IMG/VR virus record: IMGVR_UViG_3300020442_002772
Coordinates: 1 to 42,443 of that record
Source: a virus
Strand: one strand, 5' to 3'
Length of the DNA: 42,443 nucleotides
Part shown: in pieces, positions 1-23,770 of the stretch
Position numbering within the stretch: the stretch's first letter is position 1
How the letters are laid out: each line of letters opens with the position of its first letter
Notes under the pieces: model-generated
Database searches by the model: none
What the model was told of the DNA's origin: nothing
Seen by the model: the letters and a program-made list of their open reading frames with translations, nothing else
Translations under genes and position numbers: made by a program

Positions 1-242
1 TTTTGAACAACGTGAACCAATTCATGCAGCAATGTGGTGATATAGTCCTTTTCATTCAGATCATTGTGAATCTGAACAAATTGCTCATCACCATTAACCT
101 CAGTGAATCCGAAGGCATTATCATCACTTAGGTCAGTGTGATAAACCTCAACGTCACTGTCAATCTCATATTTGGTTGTAAAGAACTCGAACACACTTTG
201 AGTGAGGTGAGTGTGCTCAGATTTGCCAGAAGTGAATAACAT
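1..242 (-). CDS. HExxH metallopeptidase-like protein (3' part beyond window)
   Basis: The frame is open from an ATG at 242 to the window edge, giving 80 N-terminal residues, so the C-terminus is missing. The visible part ends in a helix with H73-E74-L-V-H77, the HExxH zinc-binding and catalytic signature of gluzincin/SprT-like metallopeptidases. A third zinc ligand would lie outside the window. The ATG overlaps the stop of the upstream 79-residue gene (TGATG), so the two are probably translationally coupled. No signal peptide is seen. The function (peptidase, or a zinc protein without activity) cannot be settled from this fragment; HELVH followed by hydrophobic residues is also found in many phage proteins of unknown role. 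Confidence 0.6.
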   Translation of the reverse strand, partial: MLFTSGKSEHTHLTQSVFEFFTTKYEIDSDVEVYHTDLSDDNAFGFTEVNGDEQFVQIHNDLNEKDYITTLLHELVHVVQ

Positions 243-481
243 CAGAAGGAGATTGCAAAGTTACCGAGATTGTCCTGAGATACTGTCTCTTTACCTGATA
301 ACATGCTGCGATCCCAATCTACATTCCAACAACCTATGTCCTCTTCAATAACAGCAAATCCGAAACATCCAGGAACAGGCATCATATATTTGCCATGAGA
401 TTCTGCCTGTCTGGCACTGGTGAATCCACGGGCATTGATTGCCCAATCCTTGCCGAAGTAAACACAGATGAAGTCTCGCAT
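242..481 (-). CDS. Hypothetical protein, 79 aa
   Basis: This is a complete 79-residue frame starting at ATG 481, preceded by AAAGGAAC with suitable spacing. It is the first gene after a hairpin and promoter module (506-566) and overlaps the next gene by the TGATG junction at 242. The protein is soluble-looking and rich in aromatic residues, with no transmembrane segment and no motif I can assign. Position and start signals support it as a real gene, probably in a short operon with the HExxH gene. Its function is unknown. Confidence 0.65.
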   Translation of the reverse strand: MRDFICVYFGKDWAINARGFTSARQAESHGKYMMPVPGCFGFAVIEEDIGCWNVDWDRSMLSGKETVSQDNLGNFAISF

Positions 482-505
482 GGGTTCCGTTCCTTTGACT
501 CTTAT

Positions 506-533
506 AGAATACAGGAAAACGGGTCCAAATCAA
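506..533 (-). promoter_or_regulatory. sigma70-like promoter (module A)
   Basis: Reading the minus strand, TTGATT (533-528) and TATTCT (511-506) are separated by 16 bases, followed by ATAAGAGTCAAAGGAAC and the ATG at 481. The same block recurs at 4709-4736 with 52 of 58 aligned bases identical (from the RBS through the first hairpin arm), which shows it is a maintained element. It is probably read by host-type RNA polymerase for early or middle expression. Confidence 0.6.
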
Positions 534-537
534 CCGA

Positions 538-566
538 TAGTGGACAGTTTGTCAAAGTGTCCACTA
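538..566 (-). promoter_or_regulatory. Perfect 9-bp inverted repeat after a stop codon
   Basis: TAGTGGACA (538-546) and TGTCCACTA (558-566) form a perfect 9-bp stem with an 11-base loop. It lies 2 bases beyond the stop of the 569-895 gene and just upstream of promoter A. No U-tract follows, so it is not a classical intrinsic terminator. It could be a 3'-end hairpin, a processing site or an operator. Confidence 0.6.
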
Positions 567-568
567 CT

Positions 569-895
569 TCACTTATTCCATAAATGTTCTGTTTTCATTG
601 CTATCCAACCTAGACCACAAATTGCTGCGACAGGTACAATAATCCACCAGAACTCCATGATCAACCAAGTTGCACCAACTATGCAACCAAGTATAAACCA
701 ACCTCCCATATCTCCAGCACTAGAGAGTAGAGAACCTCCACCATATGAAACTTCTCTTAAATTAGAAATTGTTGTAATATCACCATGCTTTGCATAGATT
801 TGATCTAAAGCACCACTATAAGATGCTGCCTCAACTGTTGTTGTAATTTGTCCAACATCTGAGTTCACCCATAAATCTGCTTTCCAAGTTGCCAT
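569..895 (-). CDS. Small membrane protein with cyanophage N-domain, 108 aa
   Basis: Residues 1-50 form a soluble region beginning M-A-T-W-K-A-D-L-W-V and ending with a Leu-Arg-Glu-Val motif. This resembles a short domain I have seen in cyanophage and cyanobacterial proteins of unknown function. Residues about 65-80 and 83-100 are strongly hydrophobic and probably form a two-helix membrane hairpin, followed by a short charged tail. I chose ATG 895 (108 aa) over the in-frame TTG at 898 because GGAGG lies at good distance from 895. It follows the deaminase gene by 3 bases and is the last gene of its operon, just before the inverted repeat at 538-566. The role is unknown. Confidence 0.7.
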   Translation of the reverse strand: MATWKADLWVNSDVGQITTTVEAASYSGALDQIYAKHGDITTISNLREVSYGGGSLLSSAGDMGGWFILGCIVGATWLIMEFWWIIVPVAAICGLGWIAMKTEHLWNK

Positions 896-18797: not shown

Positions 18798-18806
18798 TAT
18801 TTATTA
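18798..18806 (-). promoter_or_regulatory. T4-like late promoter TAATAAATA
   Basis: GGTAATAAATAGG on the minus strand overlaps the TAA stop of the hydrolase gene and lies 57 bases before ATG 18741. A weaker CTAAATACT lies closer to the start (about 18776-18784). Confidence 0.55.
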
Positions 18807-19907
18807 CCTAGGATACATTTGACCAGACTGTGGTCTTCCTGGTGCGTTCCATCCACGTTCTTGTGCAGTTAGTCCTACCATTGTAAAATCGGTAGTTACT
18901 AGTTCAGAATCTGAAAAGAGAGTATTGACTGTTTGATCTGCTGTCGCACCAATATCGTTGATATAATCTACCAACCAAGCATACTGGTTTCCATTACCCG
19001 TAGTATCACCTTTTGCCTGAGTGAATAGTATGGGTGCTTTATGTTGATATGTATACTCCTCAAGACCGATTGATTTATATGGTGCTGATCCATCTCCCGT
19101 GGAAGCACCATGAATTGCAGCAACTTTTGAACAAGATGTATTACCTGGAGTTGCAGCACAAGTTTGGTCAAACTGAATAGGACCAGGAGCATTTGCAACT
19201 ACACCAGCAATACCATCTTCTATGGTGTTCATCTTCGTGACAAGTTTACCACCTTGAGAGTGACCGAACAGGTAAACATCACCAATAGTTTTAGATCCAC
19301 CTTGTGCTGCAATATATGCGTTTAAAGAATTTTTAACCCATCCAACTGCTGCTCTAGCGTAAGGTAAGTTATCTCCCATCAAAAATGTTGATGTTTCTGT
19401 ACCAACACCACTTATGTTAAATTGTCTTGAATTTGAAATATGATCCTGAGGATATGCAGCAGAGAATATAATCAAGTCTCTACAGTTAAGACCACTTGAA
19501 TTGAGGAAATAATCAAGAGAAGTTACTGCTGATTGTGCAATAGTTGTTGATCCACCCTCAGTAACAGTTCCATGAAATACAACTAGAACATCAATTTGAC
19601 TTGCTGCTAAACCTGTAGGAACATATAATTTACCCATAACTGGATATGATGTGCCATCTACAGTATGCGTCTCACCATCACTAGGAACAATAGTGAATTG
19701 TGCATTTGCAATAGGAGCACCTGGATTAACTGAACCAATAAAGTTTCTTATTGCTGCCTGAAGAGTAGCATTTGATGTAAATGCTGCGTGAGATGTACCA
19801 GAAACTGCTGAGATAGTTACATCTGCGTTTTCTGTTGCTGCTTTAAAACTAGTAGAAAGTCCAGAAGATTGAACTGTTGTTAATTGAGGAAGTGAATAAT
19901 CTGCCAT
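18804..19907 (-). CDS. Alpha/beta hydrolase-domain virion-type protein, 367 aa
   Basis: Residues about 90-310 form an alpha/beta hydrolase: V-L-V-V-F-H-G (107-113, oxyanion strand), G215-H-S217-Q-G219 (nucleophile elbow) and A-I-H-G-A-S-T-G-D272 then A-P-Y, as in polyhydroxybutyrate/feruloyl esterase-like enzymes. No His follows in the usual late position; H289 is the only candidate after D272, so activity is uncertain. The first five residues (M-A-D-Y-S) and the last ten (R-P-Q-S-G-Q-M-Y-P-R) match the 80-residue protein upstream, so the hydrolase looks inserted into a small virion scaffold. Its ATG overlaps the previous stop (TGATG). An esterase acting on host surface polymers is one possibility. 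Confidence 0.75.
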   Translation of the reverse strand: MADYSLPQLTTVQSSGLSTSFKAATENADVTISAVSGTSHAAFTSNATLQAAIRNFIGSVNPGAPIANAQFTIVPSDGETHTVDGTSYPVMGKLYVPTGLAASQIDVLVVFHGTVTEGGSTTIAQSAVTSLDYFLNSSGLNCRDLIIFSAAYPQDHISNSRQFNISGVGTETSTFLMGDNLPYARAAVGWVKNSLNAYIAAQGGSKTIGDVYLFGHSQGGKLVTKMNTIEDGIAGVVANAPGPIQFDQTCAATPGNTSCSKVAAIHGASTGDGSAPYKSIGLEEYTYQHKAPILFTQAKGDTTGNGNQYAWLVDYINDIGATADQTVNTLFSDSELVTTDFTMVGLTAQERGWNAPGRPQSGQMYPR

Positions 19908-21559
19908 CAGACTTTTCTTGCACAGAGTAAAATTCCTGCAGTTTCTGTATACTGATTATATGAACCAGTAATTACTTCATAAACCTCGGAACCACTGATT
20001 GTAATTGTGTCACCTTGCTGAATATCTGTTTCTGAAGATGCGTATCTAAAATCAATCAATACAAAATCGTCTGGCAGATAATATGGACAAGGAATCATAC
20101 TTGAACATACAGGAATACCTTTGATAACTGCATTGTAATTTGACGATGCAGGTAACAAAGAACTAGGATCTTTTAGATCTGTGCTCCTTCTAACATATAT
20201 TTTTTGTGGACTAGAAGACCATGAAGTTTGATTATATGAAGTAGGAGAAGAATACCACTCTGTTCGTGCTGCAGCATAATTTGTTCCAGTTGCTCTGTAC
20301 TGAGTTGTTAAATGTATTTCTGCATCAGTATCAATAAATGTTCCTGCTACAGATGCATATCCCATTAGTGCAGATCTTGCACCACCATGTCTATCTTGTG
20401 TATAATAATAACTAGTACTGTAACTGTGATCATGGTCTAGATTTCCACCCAGAAAAGTATCAAAATTAATATGGCAATAATTTCCTTCATTAGCTGCTGT
20501 AGATTCTGATGGTTTAATGAATGTTAAACCACCATTCCATTGTTCATCATAATCCCATAGGGATGATGTATAATTATGGAAGAAGAATGTTAAAAATGTA
20601 TTATCACTGATTACTGATCCTGCTACAGATGGTTGCGTGAAAGAAAATATAGCAAACTTAGGATCTAAAGTAGATTGATAAACTCTTAACTTAAGATCAT
20701 GCGTTGTTGGTGATGTTGCTGTAGCAAATTCAATAGTGGCTCCTGTATTATTATTAGTATGACATTGACCAGTTTGGTTGATAGATGATGCACCTGTTGT
20801 ACTATCTCCATCAAAACCATCTTCATCATTTGGTTGATACCATGCAGTATATGTATCATCGGCAACAAGACCAGAATTCCATGAACAATCATATTGTGGT
20901 TGACCTACAAATTGATATTGTCGTCCACTAGCTCCATCAACACTATCATAATTAGATTCATTTATTGCAATAGGATCATATTTTGGTGAATATGGATGGA
21001 AGAATGGTCCTACACCAAATGAAATTTGGTTATCACTCCATACTTGTAATGCTCTACAAATAGTTCCATATTTTTTATTTGATTCAATTTCGTGTCTCAG
21101 TACACCAAATGGATATTCAGATCCTACACCAACATTTTTAACATAAAATGTAGTTGTAGATCCATATCCTGTTGCTGAAGATCTTCCCGCAACACTAACA
21201 GTAATTCCTAAACCAACTGTTGCACCAATACCAGCAGCAGGAAGAACTAAGTATTCTCCATCAGTATATCCATAACCAGGACGATTGACCATTATTGAGT
21301 TTACAACACCACCAGATCTGTAAATATCAAAACTTGCTCCAGTTCCAATACCAGAAGTAGTTTCTGCCTCTACATTATACCAATATTGATTAAGATTGGT
21401 AGTATCTTCTCCACCATTTTGTTGAGTAATAAATGTAACGATACCACTTTGAGTTGCACCATGGAACTCTACAATTTCAAATGCTTCTTCAAGTGCAAGA
21501 ATAACATCAGATCTTGCCCAACCTGCTGATTTTGTAATCGTACTGATGGATGCTGCCAT
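19907..21559 (-). CDS. Virion-type protein, 550 aa, paralogue of 650-aa protein
   Basis: Its middle carries I-M-V-N-R-P-G-Y-G-Y-T-D-G-E, and its C-terminus I-K-G-I-P-V, M-I-P-C-P-Y-Y-L-P-D-D-F-V-L-I-D-F, then G-D-T-I-T-I-S-G-S-E-V-Y. All recur in the 650-residue protein. Between them the sequence is rich in Tyr, Trp, Ser and Asn with little similarity, as expected for a variable surface domain. No enzymatic motif is seen. It starts at ATG 21559 after a late promoter and shares a base with the hydrolase start. Probably a fibre or baseplate-decoration protein. Confidence 0.7.
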   Translation of the reverse strand: MAASISTITKSAGWARSDVILALEEAFEIVEFHGATQSGIVTFITQQNGGEDTTNLNQYWYNVEAETTSGIGTGASFDIYRSGGVVNSIMVNRPGYGYTDGEYLVLPAAGIGATVGLGITVSVAGRSSATGYGSTTTFYVKNVGVGSEYPFGVLRHEIESNKKYGTICRALQVWSDNQISFGVGPFFHPYSPKYDPIAINESNYDSVDGASGRQYQFVGQPQYDCSWNSGLVADDTYTAWYQPNDEDGFDGDSTTGASSINQTGQCHTNNNTGATIEFATATSPTTHDLKLRVYQSTLDPKFAIFSFTQPSVAGSVISDNTFLTFFFHNYTSSLWDYDEQWNGGLTFIKPSESTAANEGNYCHINFDTFLGGNLDHDHSYSTSYYYTQDRHGGARSALMGYASVAGTFIDTDAEIHLTTQYRATGTNYAAARTEWYSSPTSYNQTSWSSSPQKIYVRRSTDLKDPSSLLPASSNYNAVIKGIPVCSSMIPCPYYLPDDFVLIDFRYASSETDIQQGDTITISGSEVYEVITGSYNQYTETAGILLCARKV

Positions 21560-21575
21560 TGTTTTTTATTTTTAG

Positions 21576-21818
21576 TTATTTATTAAATCTAGGATATAAT
21601 TGACCATTTGGTGGTCTATCCTGACTGCGGTTAAACACATTTACTGTACCAGATGTGTATGTGACATCAAATGCTTTCAATGGAACACCACCATTGGTTG
21701 TGGTAATATAAAAAGGACTATCTCCTGATCGAATAGTGCTACCAGTTGTAAATCTGGTAGCAGTATTGAACATACTTTGAGATGGTACGGTTAGATGTGA
21801 GAAAGAATAATCTGCCAT
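21576..21818 (-). CDS. Short virion-type protein, 80 aa
   Basis: M-A-D-Y-S-F-S-H-L-T at the start and R-P-P-N-G-Q-L-Y-P-R near the end match the ends of the 367-residue hydrolase protein. It is beta-rich with no catalytic motif, and looks like the ancestral short form of that scaffold. ATG 21818 overlaps the stop of the 650-residue gene (TAATG). It probably forms a complex with its long partner. The R-x-x-x-G-Q-L-Y-P-R ending looks like a conserved tag. Confidence 0.7.
   Translation of the reverse strand: MADYSFSHLTVPSQSMFNTATRFTTGSTIRSGDSPFYITTTNGGVPLKAFDVTYTSGTVNVFNRSQDRPPNGQLYPRFNK
21577..21585 (-). promoter_or_regulatory. T4-like late promoter TAATAAATA
   Basis: TTTAATAAATAACTA on the minus strand covers the last codons and stop of the 80-residue gene, 18 bases before ATG 21559. 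Confidence 0.6.
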
Positions 21819-23770
21819 TAGGTTGTCCTCGCACAGAATGCAATACCTGTTGTTCCTGATCCTTGATAGTATGATGCAACAATTACTGTGTATATTTCAC
21901 TACCACTAATTGTAATTGTGTCTCCCTGGTCAATGAATTCGTTACTTGAACTATAGAAGAAGTCAATCAATACAAAGTCATCTGGAATATAATATGGACA
22001 AGGAACCATTTTAGCATTAACTGGAATACCTTTAATGACTGGATTGAAATCAACACCCACTGTATCTTGCCCAGTTGTTCCTGCAGAACCAAATGAATAA
22101 TTTTTACGGTTCATCGCAGAATTTGTTGATCTGTGATAAACATGCATTGTAGTGTTATCATTCTGACTACCAGAAGATCTTGATGGAACTATCTGAGAAT
22201 AGTAATCGGTAATGAGGTAATTAGTAAAATCATCACCAGTATCTATAGATGCATAACCAAATTCACCAACACGTCTTGCAGGATTGTCATCACCACCAGC
22301 ACGATTATTTCCACCAATTTGTGTGGAGAAACGAATGTATGGATTTGTACCACCTTGCCCACCATCATCGATATATGTTGTTCCAGCAGTAAAGCATTCA
22401 TCTAGATCCCAAACATTTTGAGAGAAGTTATGGAAGAACCAAGCATTGACACTTCTTCCGTCCCATCTTGATGCAGATACATCTGGTTCATAATATGAAA
22501 ATACTGCAAAATCTGGGTCAATTCCTGACCTGTAAATATTCAAATCAAGTCTTTTGTTTGTACCTCCACCATGACCTAACGATGCATTTGTATGGGCAAG
22601 TGCATTATTTGAATTAAGTCCACTTTGAAAAGTATTATATGCATCATATATGTGACCAACATATCCGTTGTCTAATCCATTTGCTCCAGCAAATCTCTTA
22701 CCATATCCATGACCACCACTATAATAAACATATCCAGATCTGGTTGAGGGTTGCCATCCACTACCAACCCATTGAGTAATACTAGTATTACTATTATATG
22801 CTCCAAATAATCTATATGTTGCACCAAATTTTTTATTCTCATCAAAACTTTGTCTCCAAACTGCCCATGGAGATGATGTATTTGTATAGTCAACATGATA
22901 CCAACTATTTGTTGTACCAAAACCAACTGTAGAAATACCAGAAGTTGCTGCAGTTACAACTACATTACCTACATCATTGTTTACATAACTTCTAATGTCG
23001 GATGCTGATTCACGGAAGAAATACTTTCCTGCTTGACCAGGTAATGGAGTAAATGTTCCTGTTCCACCATTACTGAATAATCCAGCATTAAAAACTCTGT
23101 TTTCATTAGTATATTCATGATAATAACTATTAGCAATTGGATGATTTCTCCAGCAAAGTGCCATATTACTCCAACTACCATTATTATCAAAAGTTAGAGT
23201 GTCACCTTCTTGAATTTCAACATAGGTGTTAGTGCATGATCCAGAAACATATCCATTTCTAGCCCATGCTTCAATATTAATGGGATTAGTACCAGTAATT
23301 GTGGCAATATAAGAATTACCACCAGTTACATCAGCTTCAATAACAACTGGAATTGTAATATCTGTTGCACCATTTGCAGAACCACCAATATCTTCGGCAG
23401 AAAGTGTTACAACTTCTCCTCCAGTATATCCATAACCAGGACGATTAACCATAATCGCATCAATAACTAGGACACCTGAACCGTTGTCATTATCAAATGG
23501 ACATCTTTGTACCAAGAATGATGCTCCAGTTCCAATACCAGTTGTTGCTACTGGAAATACATCTTGGTATTCTGGTTGTTTTGGAGTGCCATTAGGTAGT
23601 GAACCACCACCATAAAATGTTTGAAATCCGCAAACCTTACCAATTTCAGAAGTTCCAGAACCAGCAATACTATGCCAACCTAACCACTCAAGACCTTCAC
23701 CGAGTTGTTCCAATAAATTTACTCTTGTCCAAGTTCCTGCGATAGAAACTGTATTTGTAGTAATTGCCAT
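21818..23770 (-). CDS. Virion-type protein, 650 aa, paralogue of 550-aa protein
   Basis: This shares with the 550-residue protein the I-M-V-N-R-P-G-Y-G-Y-T-G-G-E motif and the C-terminal I-K-G-I-P-V, C-P-Y-Y-I-P-D-D-F-V-L-I-D-F, I-T-I-S-G-S-E-I-Y region. Its middle is about 100 residues longer and rich in Asn, Gly, Ser, Trp and Tyr. GGAGG lies before ATG 23770, which is 3 bases after the stop of the 904-residue fibre gene. No catalytic motif is visible. Likely a late virion protein exposed on a fibre or baseplate. Confidence 0.7.
   Translation of the reverse strand: MAITTNTVSIAGTWTRVNLLEQLGEGLEWLGWHSIAGSGTSEIGKVCGFQTFYGGGSLPNGTPKQPEYQDVFPVATTGIGTGASFLVQRCPFDNDNGSGVLVIDAIMVNRPGYGYTGGEVVTLSAEDIGGSANGATDITIPVVIEADVTGGNSYIATITGTNPINIEAWARNGYVSGSCTNTYVEIQEGDTLTFDNNGSWSNMALCWRNHPIANSYYHEYTNENRVFNAGLFSNGGTGTFTPLPGQAGKYFFRESASDIRSYVNNDVGNVVVTAATSGISTVGFGTTNSWYHVDYTNTSSPWAVWRQSFDENKKFGATYRLFGAYNSNTSITQWVGSGWQPSTRSGYVYYSGGHGYGKRFAGANGLDNGYVGHIYDAYNTFQSGLNSNNALAHTNASLGHGGGTNKRLDLNIYRSGIDPDFAVFSYYEPDVSASRWDGRSVNAWFFHNFSQNVWDLDECFTAGTTYIDDGGQGGTNPYIRFSTQIGGNNRAGGDDNPARRVGEFGYASIDTGDDFTNYLITDYYSQIVPSRSSGSQNDNTTMHVYHRSTNSAMNRKNYSFGSAGTTGQDTVGVDFNPVIKGIPVNAKMVPCPYYIPDDFVLIDFFYSSSNEFIDQGDTITISGSEIYTVIVASYYQGSGTTGIAFCARTT

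Follow-up and report, generated by a model that had tools for sequence, protein, structure and literature searches.

Tail-spike and tail-fibre esterases and depolymerases are known from phages, among them deacetylases such as G7C gp63.1, and Ig-like domains are recurrent insertions in phage virion proteins. In nature, circular permutants tend to be old and small in number, and a literature search on circular permutation together with phage tails or hydrolases returned nothing relevant and no precedent. Here we describe a phage locus for which our preferred reading, to which we give a probability of roughly 80%, is a small tail-fibre partner carrying an in-frame, permuted alpha/beta hydrolase that belongs to a mobile virion-borne family, would be an active esterase and would have arisen from a joined copy of the domain.

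Two long/short gene pairs and an empty site

The window, by which we mean the whole 42,443-nucleotide stretch of DNA analysed, comes from the genome of a T4-like Synechococcus phage; the isolate S-SCSM1 is close to it, with 85% DNA identity over the stretch. A first-pass annotation had described two tandem long/short gene pairs with a stop/start overlap as a duplicated fibre cassette, and had proposed that a hydrolase was grafted between conserved ends of one short protein. The coordinates and lengths of the pairs (650/80 and 550/367 amino acids) proved exact, with a one-base overlap of the long stop codon and the short ATG in both (TAATG at 21818, TGATG at 19907):

21818-23770, minus strand: long partner A, 650 amino acids, paralogue of long partner B; orthologue SSCSM1_232, labelled "virion protein"
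21576-21818, minus strand: short partner A, 80 amino acids, without insert (open reading frame, BLASTP)
19907-21559, minus strand: long partner B, 550 amino acids, paralogue of long partner A; orthologue SSCSM1_234, labelled "virion protein"
18804-19907, minus strand: short partner B, 367 amino acids, with the grafted permuted alpha/beta hydrolase (form A, defined below); S-SCSM1 orthologue SSCSM1_235
19836-19907, minus strand: host N-terminal flank of short partner B, MADYSLPQLTTVQSSGLSTSFKAA, residues 1-24; aligned to the empty-site orthologue, low pLDDT
18807-18929, minus strand: host C-terminal flank, residues 327-367, ending GRPQSGQMYPR; 66.7% identity (residues 326-367) to the empty-site orthologue

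Judged by their sequences, the two pairs are paralogous, as the duplication claim held: the long proteins are 32% identical over 441 columns (E 6e-46), and their N-terminal parts give a further match at 35% (E 7e-15). Neither the long partners nor the short partner had a genuine match in PHROGs or Pfam, and long partner B, searched with strict patterns, had none in the viral contigs. On another contig (L024:8260-10400), a second pair consists of a 73-residue short partner without insert and a long protein that has diverged to 39% from long A identity.

BLASTP aligns the 80- and 367-residue proteins solely over residues 1-25 (40%) and the terminal RPxxGQxYPR (7/10). Taken by themselves the two are only weakly similar, as would be expected if they were unrelated and their short ends agreed by chance. 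We consider that highly improbable: the N- and C-terminal ends score 43 and 44 against shuffled means of 18.7 each, values that none of 1000 shuffles reached, a 76-residue orthologue bridges both proteins, and a search for further proteins with such ends found, in the cyanophages S-H9-1 and Sf-CH1b, a family of short partners whose ends are conserved and whose middle varies. The alignments thus indicate that the common ends, weak in similarity, are not a chance match. Matches on contigs L029-L047 were rejected as short partners, having only a DRPPNGQPYP stretch of a 1690-residue protein in common. In that large open reading frame (L029:6964-12042, about 1690 residues if complete, and similar loci on L030-L047) the stretch, DRPPNGQPYPxFN, resembles the end of the 80-residue protein.

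The 76-residue protein, MADYSIPSLGSVQSSGLSTGFQSTKVTTITLNPIFRDANLLGVNFSVVGLTTQQRGWNAPGRPQSGQMYPRGVYNK (L027:9990-10220, also in L028), is an uninterrupted orthologue of the 367-residue protein in the same synteny. The order on L027 is long-A, a 92-residue short protein, long-B, the 76-residue short protein and a downstream gene of 1022 amino acids, and L028 is alike; in both, long-B is 58% and the downstream gene 90% identical to the window counterparts. The orthologue matches both ends of the 367-residue protein and lacks residues from about 25 to 326, and when the ends of the grafted protein are joined they score 231 against it (263 for the copy on L003), compared to a shuffled mean of 24. 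The insert measures about 302 residues and lies close to where the conserved N-terminal part of the short partner ends. At the level of sequence, the graft into the short partner is proven by this empty-site orthologue. The kinship drawn earlier between the 80- and 367-residue proteins stands, but the 80-residue protein is a paralogue and not the form that preceded insertion, which is of the 76-residue type.

That the gain occurred in a virion component is supported by S-SCSM1 (MK867354), where SSCSM1_235 has the same graft and permutation at 86% identity and is recorded as "tail fiber protein (virion protein)", with the hydrolase unnamed. In the part of the S-SCSM1 paper available, the lone passage on a hydrolase concerns another protein. 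Mass spectrometry identified 45 virion proteins in S-SCSM1, according to that paper (PMC9602691), and we counted about 48 "virion protein" labels in the record. Since the label is also given to three non-structural proteins that the paper names as detected by mass spectrometry, and is withheld from several recognisable structural proteins, we infer that it denotes such detection. In S-SCSM1, 2OG-Fe(II) oxygenase genes are densely clustered downstream of the fibre genes (L001:27973-36995), and by gene order the matching left part of the window probably has such a cluster as well; the paper gives 24 of these genes for the S-SCSM1 genome (PMC9602691).

A hydrolase domain in three circular orders

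The first-pass annotation had recognised an alpha/beta hydrolase between the conserved ends, which the empty-site orthologue, a confident fold and a complete triad support. It had missed the circular permutation of the domain and its membership in a family inserted, in three orders, into many unrelated tail and baseplate proteins. The elements concerned are:

18930-19835, minus strand: inserted hydrolase domain, residues about 25-326; missing from L027:9990-10220; pLDDT about 85-98 over most of residues 26-322
19734-19832, minus strand: displaced C-terminal element (strand, catalytic His40, helix), residues 26-58, here N-terminal; aligns to canonical reference 262-295
19788-19790, minus strand: His40, catalytic histidine; invariant in 35/35
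19257-19259, minus strand: Ser217, nucleophile in FGHSQGG; invariant in 35/35
19005-19007, minus strand: Asp301, triad acid; invariant in 35/35

Comparison of the 367-residue protein with viral contigs gave near-identical copies and many loci where residues from about 20 to 330 are matched within large unrelated proteins, as two pieces whose order is swapped. We classed the members by aligning them to a doubled copy of the domain on L022, which has the canonical order and served as reference. In form C (canonical, e.g. L022) the core is followed by the Asp segment and then the His segment; in form A (the window, S-SCSM1, L003 and L004) the order is His segment, core, Asp segment; and in form B it is Asp segment, His segment, core. 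The window domain aligns to the doubled reference as 262-295 then 1-258 with 68% identity, and 17 B forms as 214-295 then 1-207 with 54-70%, each better than by linear alignment; identity for the permuted forms extends over the full domain. The rearrangement is also visible in DNA, with 72-84% identity per block (about 75-80% for the core). Alpha/beta hydrolases have their nucleophile, acid and histidine in that order, with the histidine near the C-terminus; form C relatives fit this, whereas the window protein, with His40-Ser217-Asp301, fails it and is for this reason described as a circularly permuted derivative and not a canonical member.

Forms B and C come solely from assembled metagenomic contigs, so that one might take the permuted orders for assembly artefacts or chimeras. 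We regard this as very unlikely, given that form A is found in the window, two other contigs and an isolate, that form B occurs in many independent contigs and hosts within single unbroken open reading frames of up to about 4000 residues, and that the permuted copies differ by about 20-25% in DNA and are thus not one read set rearranged. Among the contigs searched, none contained two copies of the domain, the would-be permutation intermediate.

Structure prediction agrees with the permutation. The comparison covers one canonical model (L022; pLDDT 79, pTM 0.85) and one A model (the window protein, with the confidence given above and host flanks below 50), the alignments behind both coming from one and the same family. 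Foldseek matches to the L022 model were feruloyl, cinnamoyl and acetyl esterases. The canonical model aligns end to end with 6xyc (14..288, Z 20.0, 232 residues), whereas the window model covers just 11..256 (Z 15.6, 213 residues), beginning at its residue 62-63 or so; the template spans of the window and canonical models differ likewise for 3ain (40..260 vs 41..303) and 2hu8 (325..544 vs 329..580). The window model has the central-sheet fold of alpha/beta hydrolases (2hu8, Z 16.1, 213 residues, 2.9 Å). Its alignments to solved esterases end before the last strand, His loop and helix, and the absent element corresponds to window residues 26-58. By sequence the relationship is distant: Abhydrolase_6 of Pfam scores 13.5 bits for the window protein against a cut-off of 26.3, canonical relatives also falling below it, and a search of the PDB by sequence found no true homologue, the best profile match being LpqC (3d0k, E 0.034). 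An adiponectin match from the same search was rejected as a chance stretch. Sequence, DNA and predicted structure together identify the insert as a whole, circularly permuted alpha/beta-hydrolase domain with a Ser-Asp-His triad.

Host proteins and origin of the permutations

Relatives with 54-70% identity lie inside unrelated virion proteins of the baseplate, tail fibre, short tail fibre and podovirus-type tail. By PHROG, the hosts are baseplate wedge or virion structural proteins (phrog_2885, 4406), tail fibres (529, 9729, 15006), virion structural or short tail-fibre proteins (30655, 4924), a podovirus-type tail protein (457) and a protease-like family (9158, 3677), with several more of unknown family. 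Two hosts of unknown family (L053:1058-3046 and L083:3105-4259) both have a similar CGxxxExLFxxY stretch. In S-SCSM1, homologues of several host proteins are annotated as virion proteins and have no second copy of the domain; among phage isolates searched, S-SCSM1 was the sole match. Further empty sites were found between L005 and L015, in both directions, and in L006 relative to L022 and L012. At one site in phrog_529 proteins, form B is present in L049 (8139-9014) and form C in L022 (7980-8864), and at one site in phrog_30655 proteins form B is present in L017 (8001-8897) and form C in L054 (7977-8828). Together with the spread of the three permutations over unrelated virion proteins, these two cases give a natural experiment on how an enzyme tolerates permutation and insertion.

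In-frame insertion in virion genes and clean empty sites would also be seen for a self-removing element such as an intein, absent from the mature virion protein. There is very little chance of this here: the fold is a complete alpha/beta hydrolase, the 367-residue protein matched no intein-type (Hint) domain, and the canonical and permuted forms have no common splice-type ends.

The canonical order is probably ancestral, because phage proteins also contain insertions of a second clade with this order, about 42% identical to L022, and because a Parcubacteria metagenome-assembled genome (L061:5734-6696) encodes a stand-alone relative of 320 residues, canonical in order and with the same motifs (30% identity). 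This genome is a possible cellular source of the domain; in a genome scan query A1 had no match and query A2 matched only it, and the plasmids searched had none. The N-terminal residues of the stand-alone protein resemble a signal or membrane anchor.

In each class, one of three linkers is missing. The closing linker of form A (GSxNPxGxIxNxQF) is common to many B forms and its GDGSxPYxSIGLE linker to form C, and forms B and C have the Asp-to-His linker in common. This pattern suggests that a joined copy of the domain, tandem or circular, was opened anew at different loops to give the permuted forms, although the permutations may have arisen by independent events. In a tree of the domain form A lies among B forms with weak resolution, and the AU test rejected single origins of B and of A plus B (p 0.016 and 0.004), on weak branches and with long rows included. 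A bolder proposal, which we hold only tentatively and think somewhat more apt to fail than to stand, is that the domain spreads between virion genes as joined (tandem or circular) DNA and is inserted pre-permuted, broken in any of three tolerant loops. If true, host fibre and baseplate genes would gain a working esterase at loops that take either permutation.

Function and comparison with known systems

A complete domain of about 300 residues has entered the small tail-fibre partner in frame, its chain running from the His strand and helix through the core, which bears HGT and GHSQGG, to the Asp segment. It would fold autonomously, with its new N- and C-termini near each other in a loop, so that the two ends of the host protein could continue on either side. 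The domain belongs to a family of mobile virion-borne domains of marine phages, whose members are found, in three circular orders, within many tail and baseplate proteins unrelated to one another.

The modelled fold and the triad make an esterase or lipase the most likely identity of the domain, the nearest folds being feruloyl, acetyl and carbohydrate esterases and lipases. Non-enzymatic inserted domains are frequent in phage tails, and this one could likewise have lost catalysis and serve as a structural or carbohydrate-binding decoration. That is unlikely, though the least improbable of the alternatives considered, in view of the serine, aspartate, histidine, HGT motif and two cysteines, which are invariant in 35/35 members, in every permutation and down to about 30-40% identity. 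An active esterase displayed on the virion and acting on the host surface is the most likely reading. Such an enzyme might remove acyl groups from surface polysaccharide, or act as a lipase, and could aid adsorption or entry; surface polysaccharide or outer-membrane lipid would be its target in adsorption. Its substrate and activity are inferred here, as is the route by which its DNA spreads.

Across the family, one enzyme occurs in three permutations that are 54-70% identical and retain the triad, and the virion proteins that carry it are of about ten unrelated kinds. This speaks for a mobile enzyme module whose active site is preserved wherever the chain is cut and re-joined, and would give phage tails a new way of acquiring catalysis directed at marine bacteria. 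The isolate S-SCSM1 makes the permuted-hydrolase reading testable.

Compared with tail-spike esterases of the G7C gp63.1 type, the window protein is alike in being a probable ester-cleaving enzyme on the tail; the former are dedicated trimeric spikes, whereas the domain here is an internal alpha/beta-hydrolase insert at many sites and in several permutations. The solved alpha/beta-hydrolase esterases (feruloyl and cinnamoyl, 3pf9 and 7xri; carbohydrate esterase, 6xyc/6tkx; lipase, 6nkf) have the same fold, GHSQGG elbow and Ser-Asp-His triad, but are about 15% identical to the phage domain, whose forms A and B are permuted and lie inside virion proteins. The Parcubacteria hydrolase has the canonical order of form C, though as a separate protein and not an insert. 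Inserted Ig-like domains are similarly one family spread over many unrelated structural proteins; the phage hydrolase domain differs from them in being an enzyme, with conserved catalytic residues and three circular permutations.
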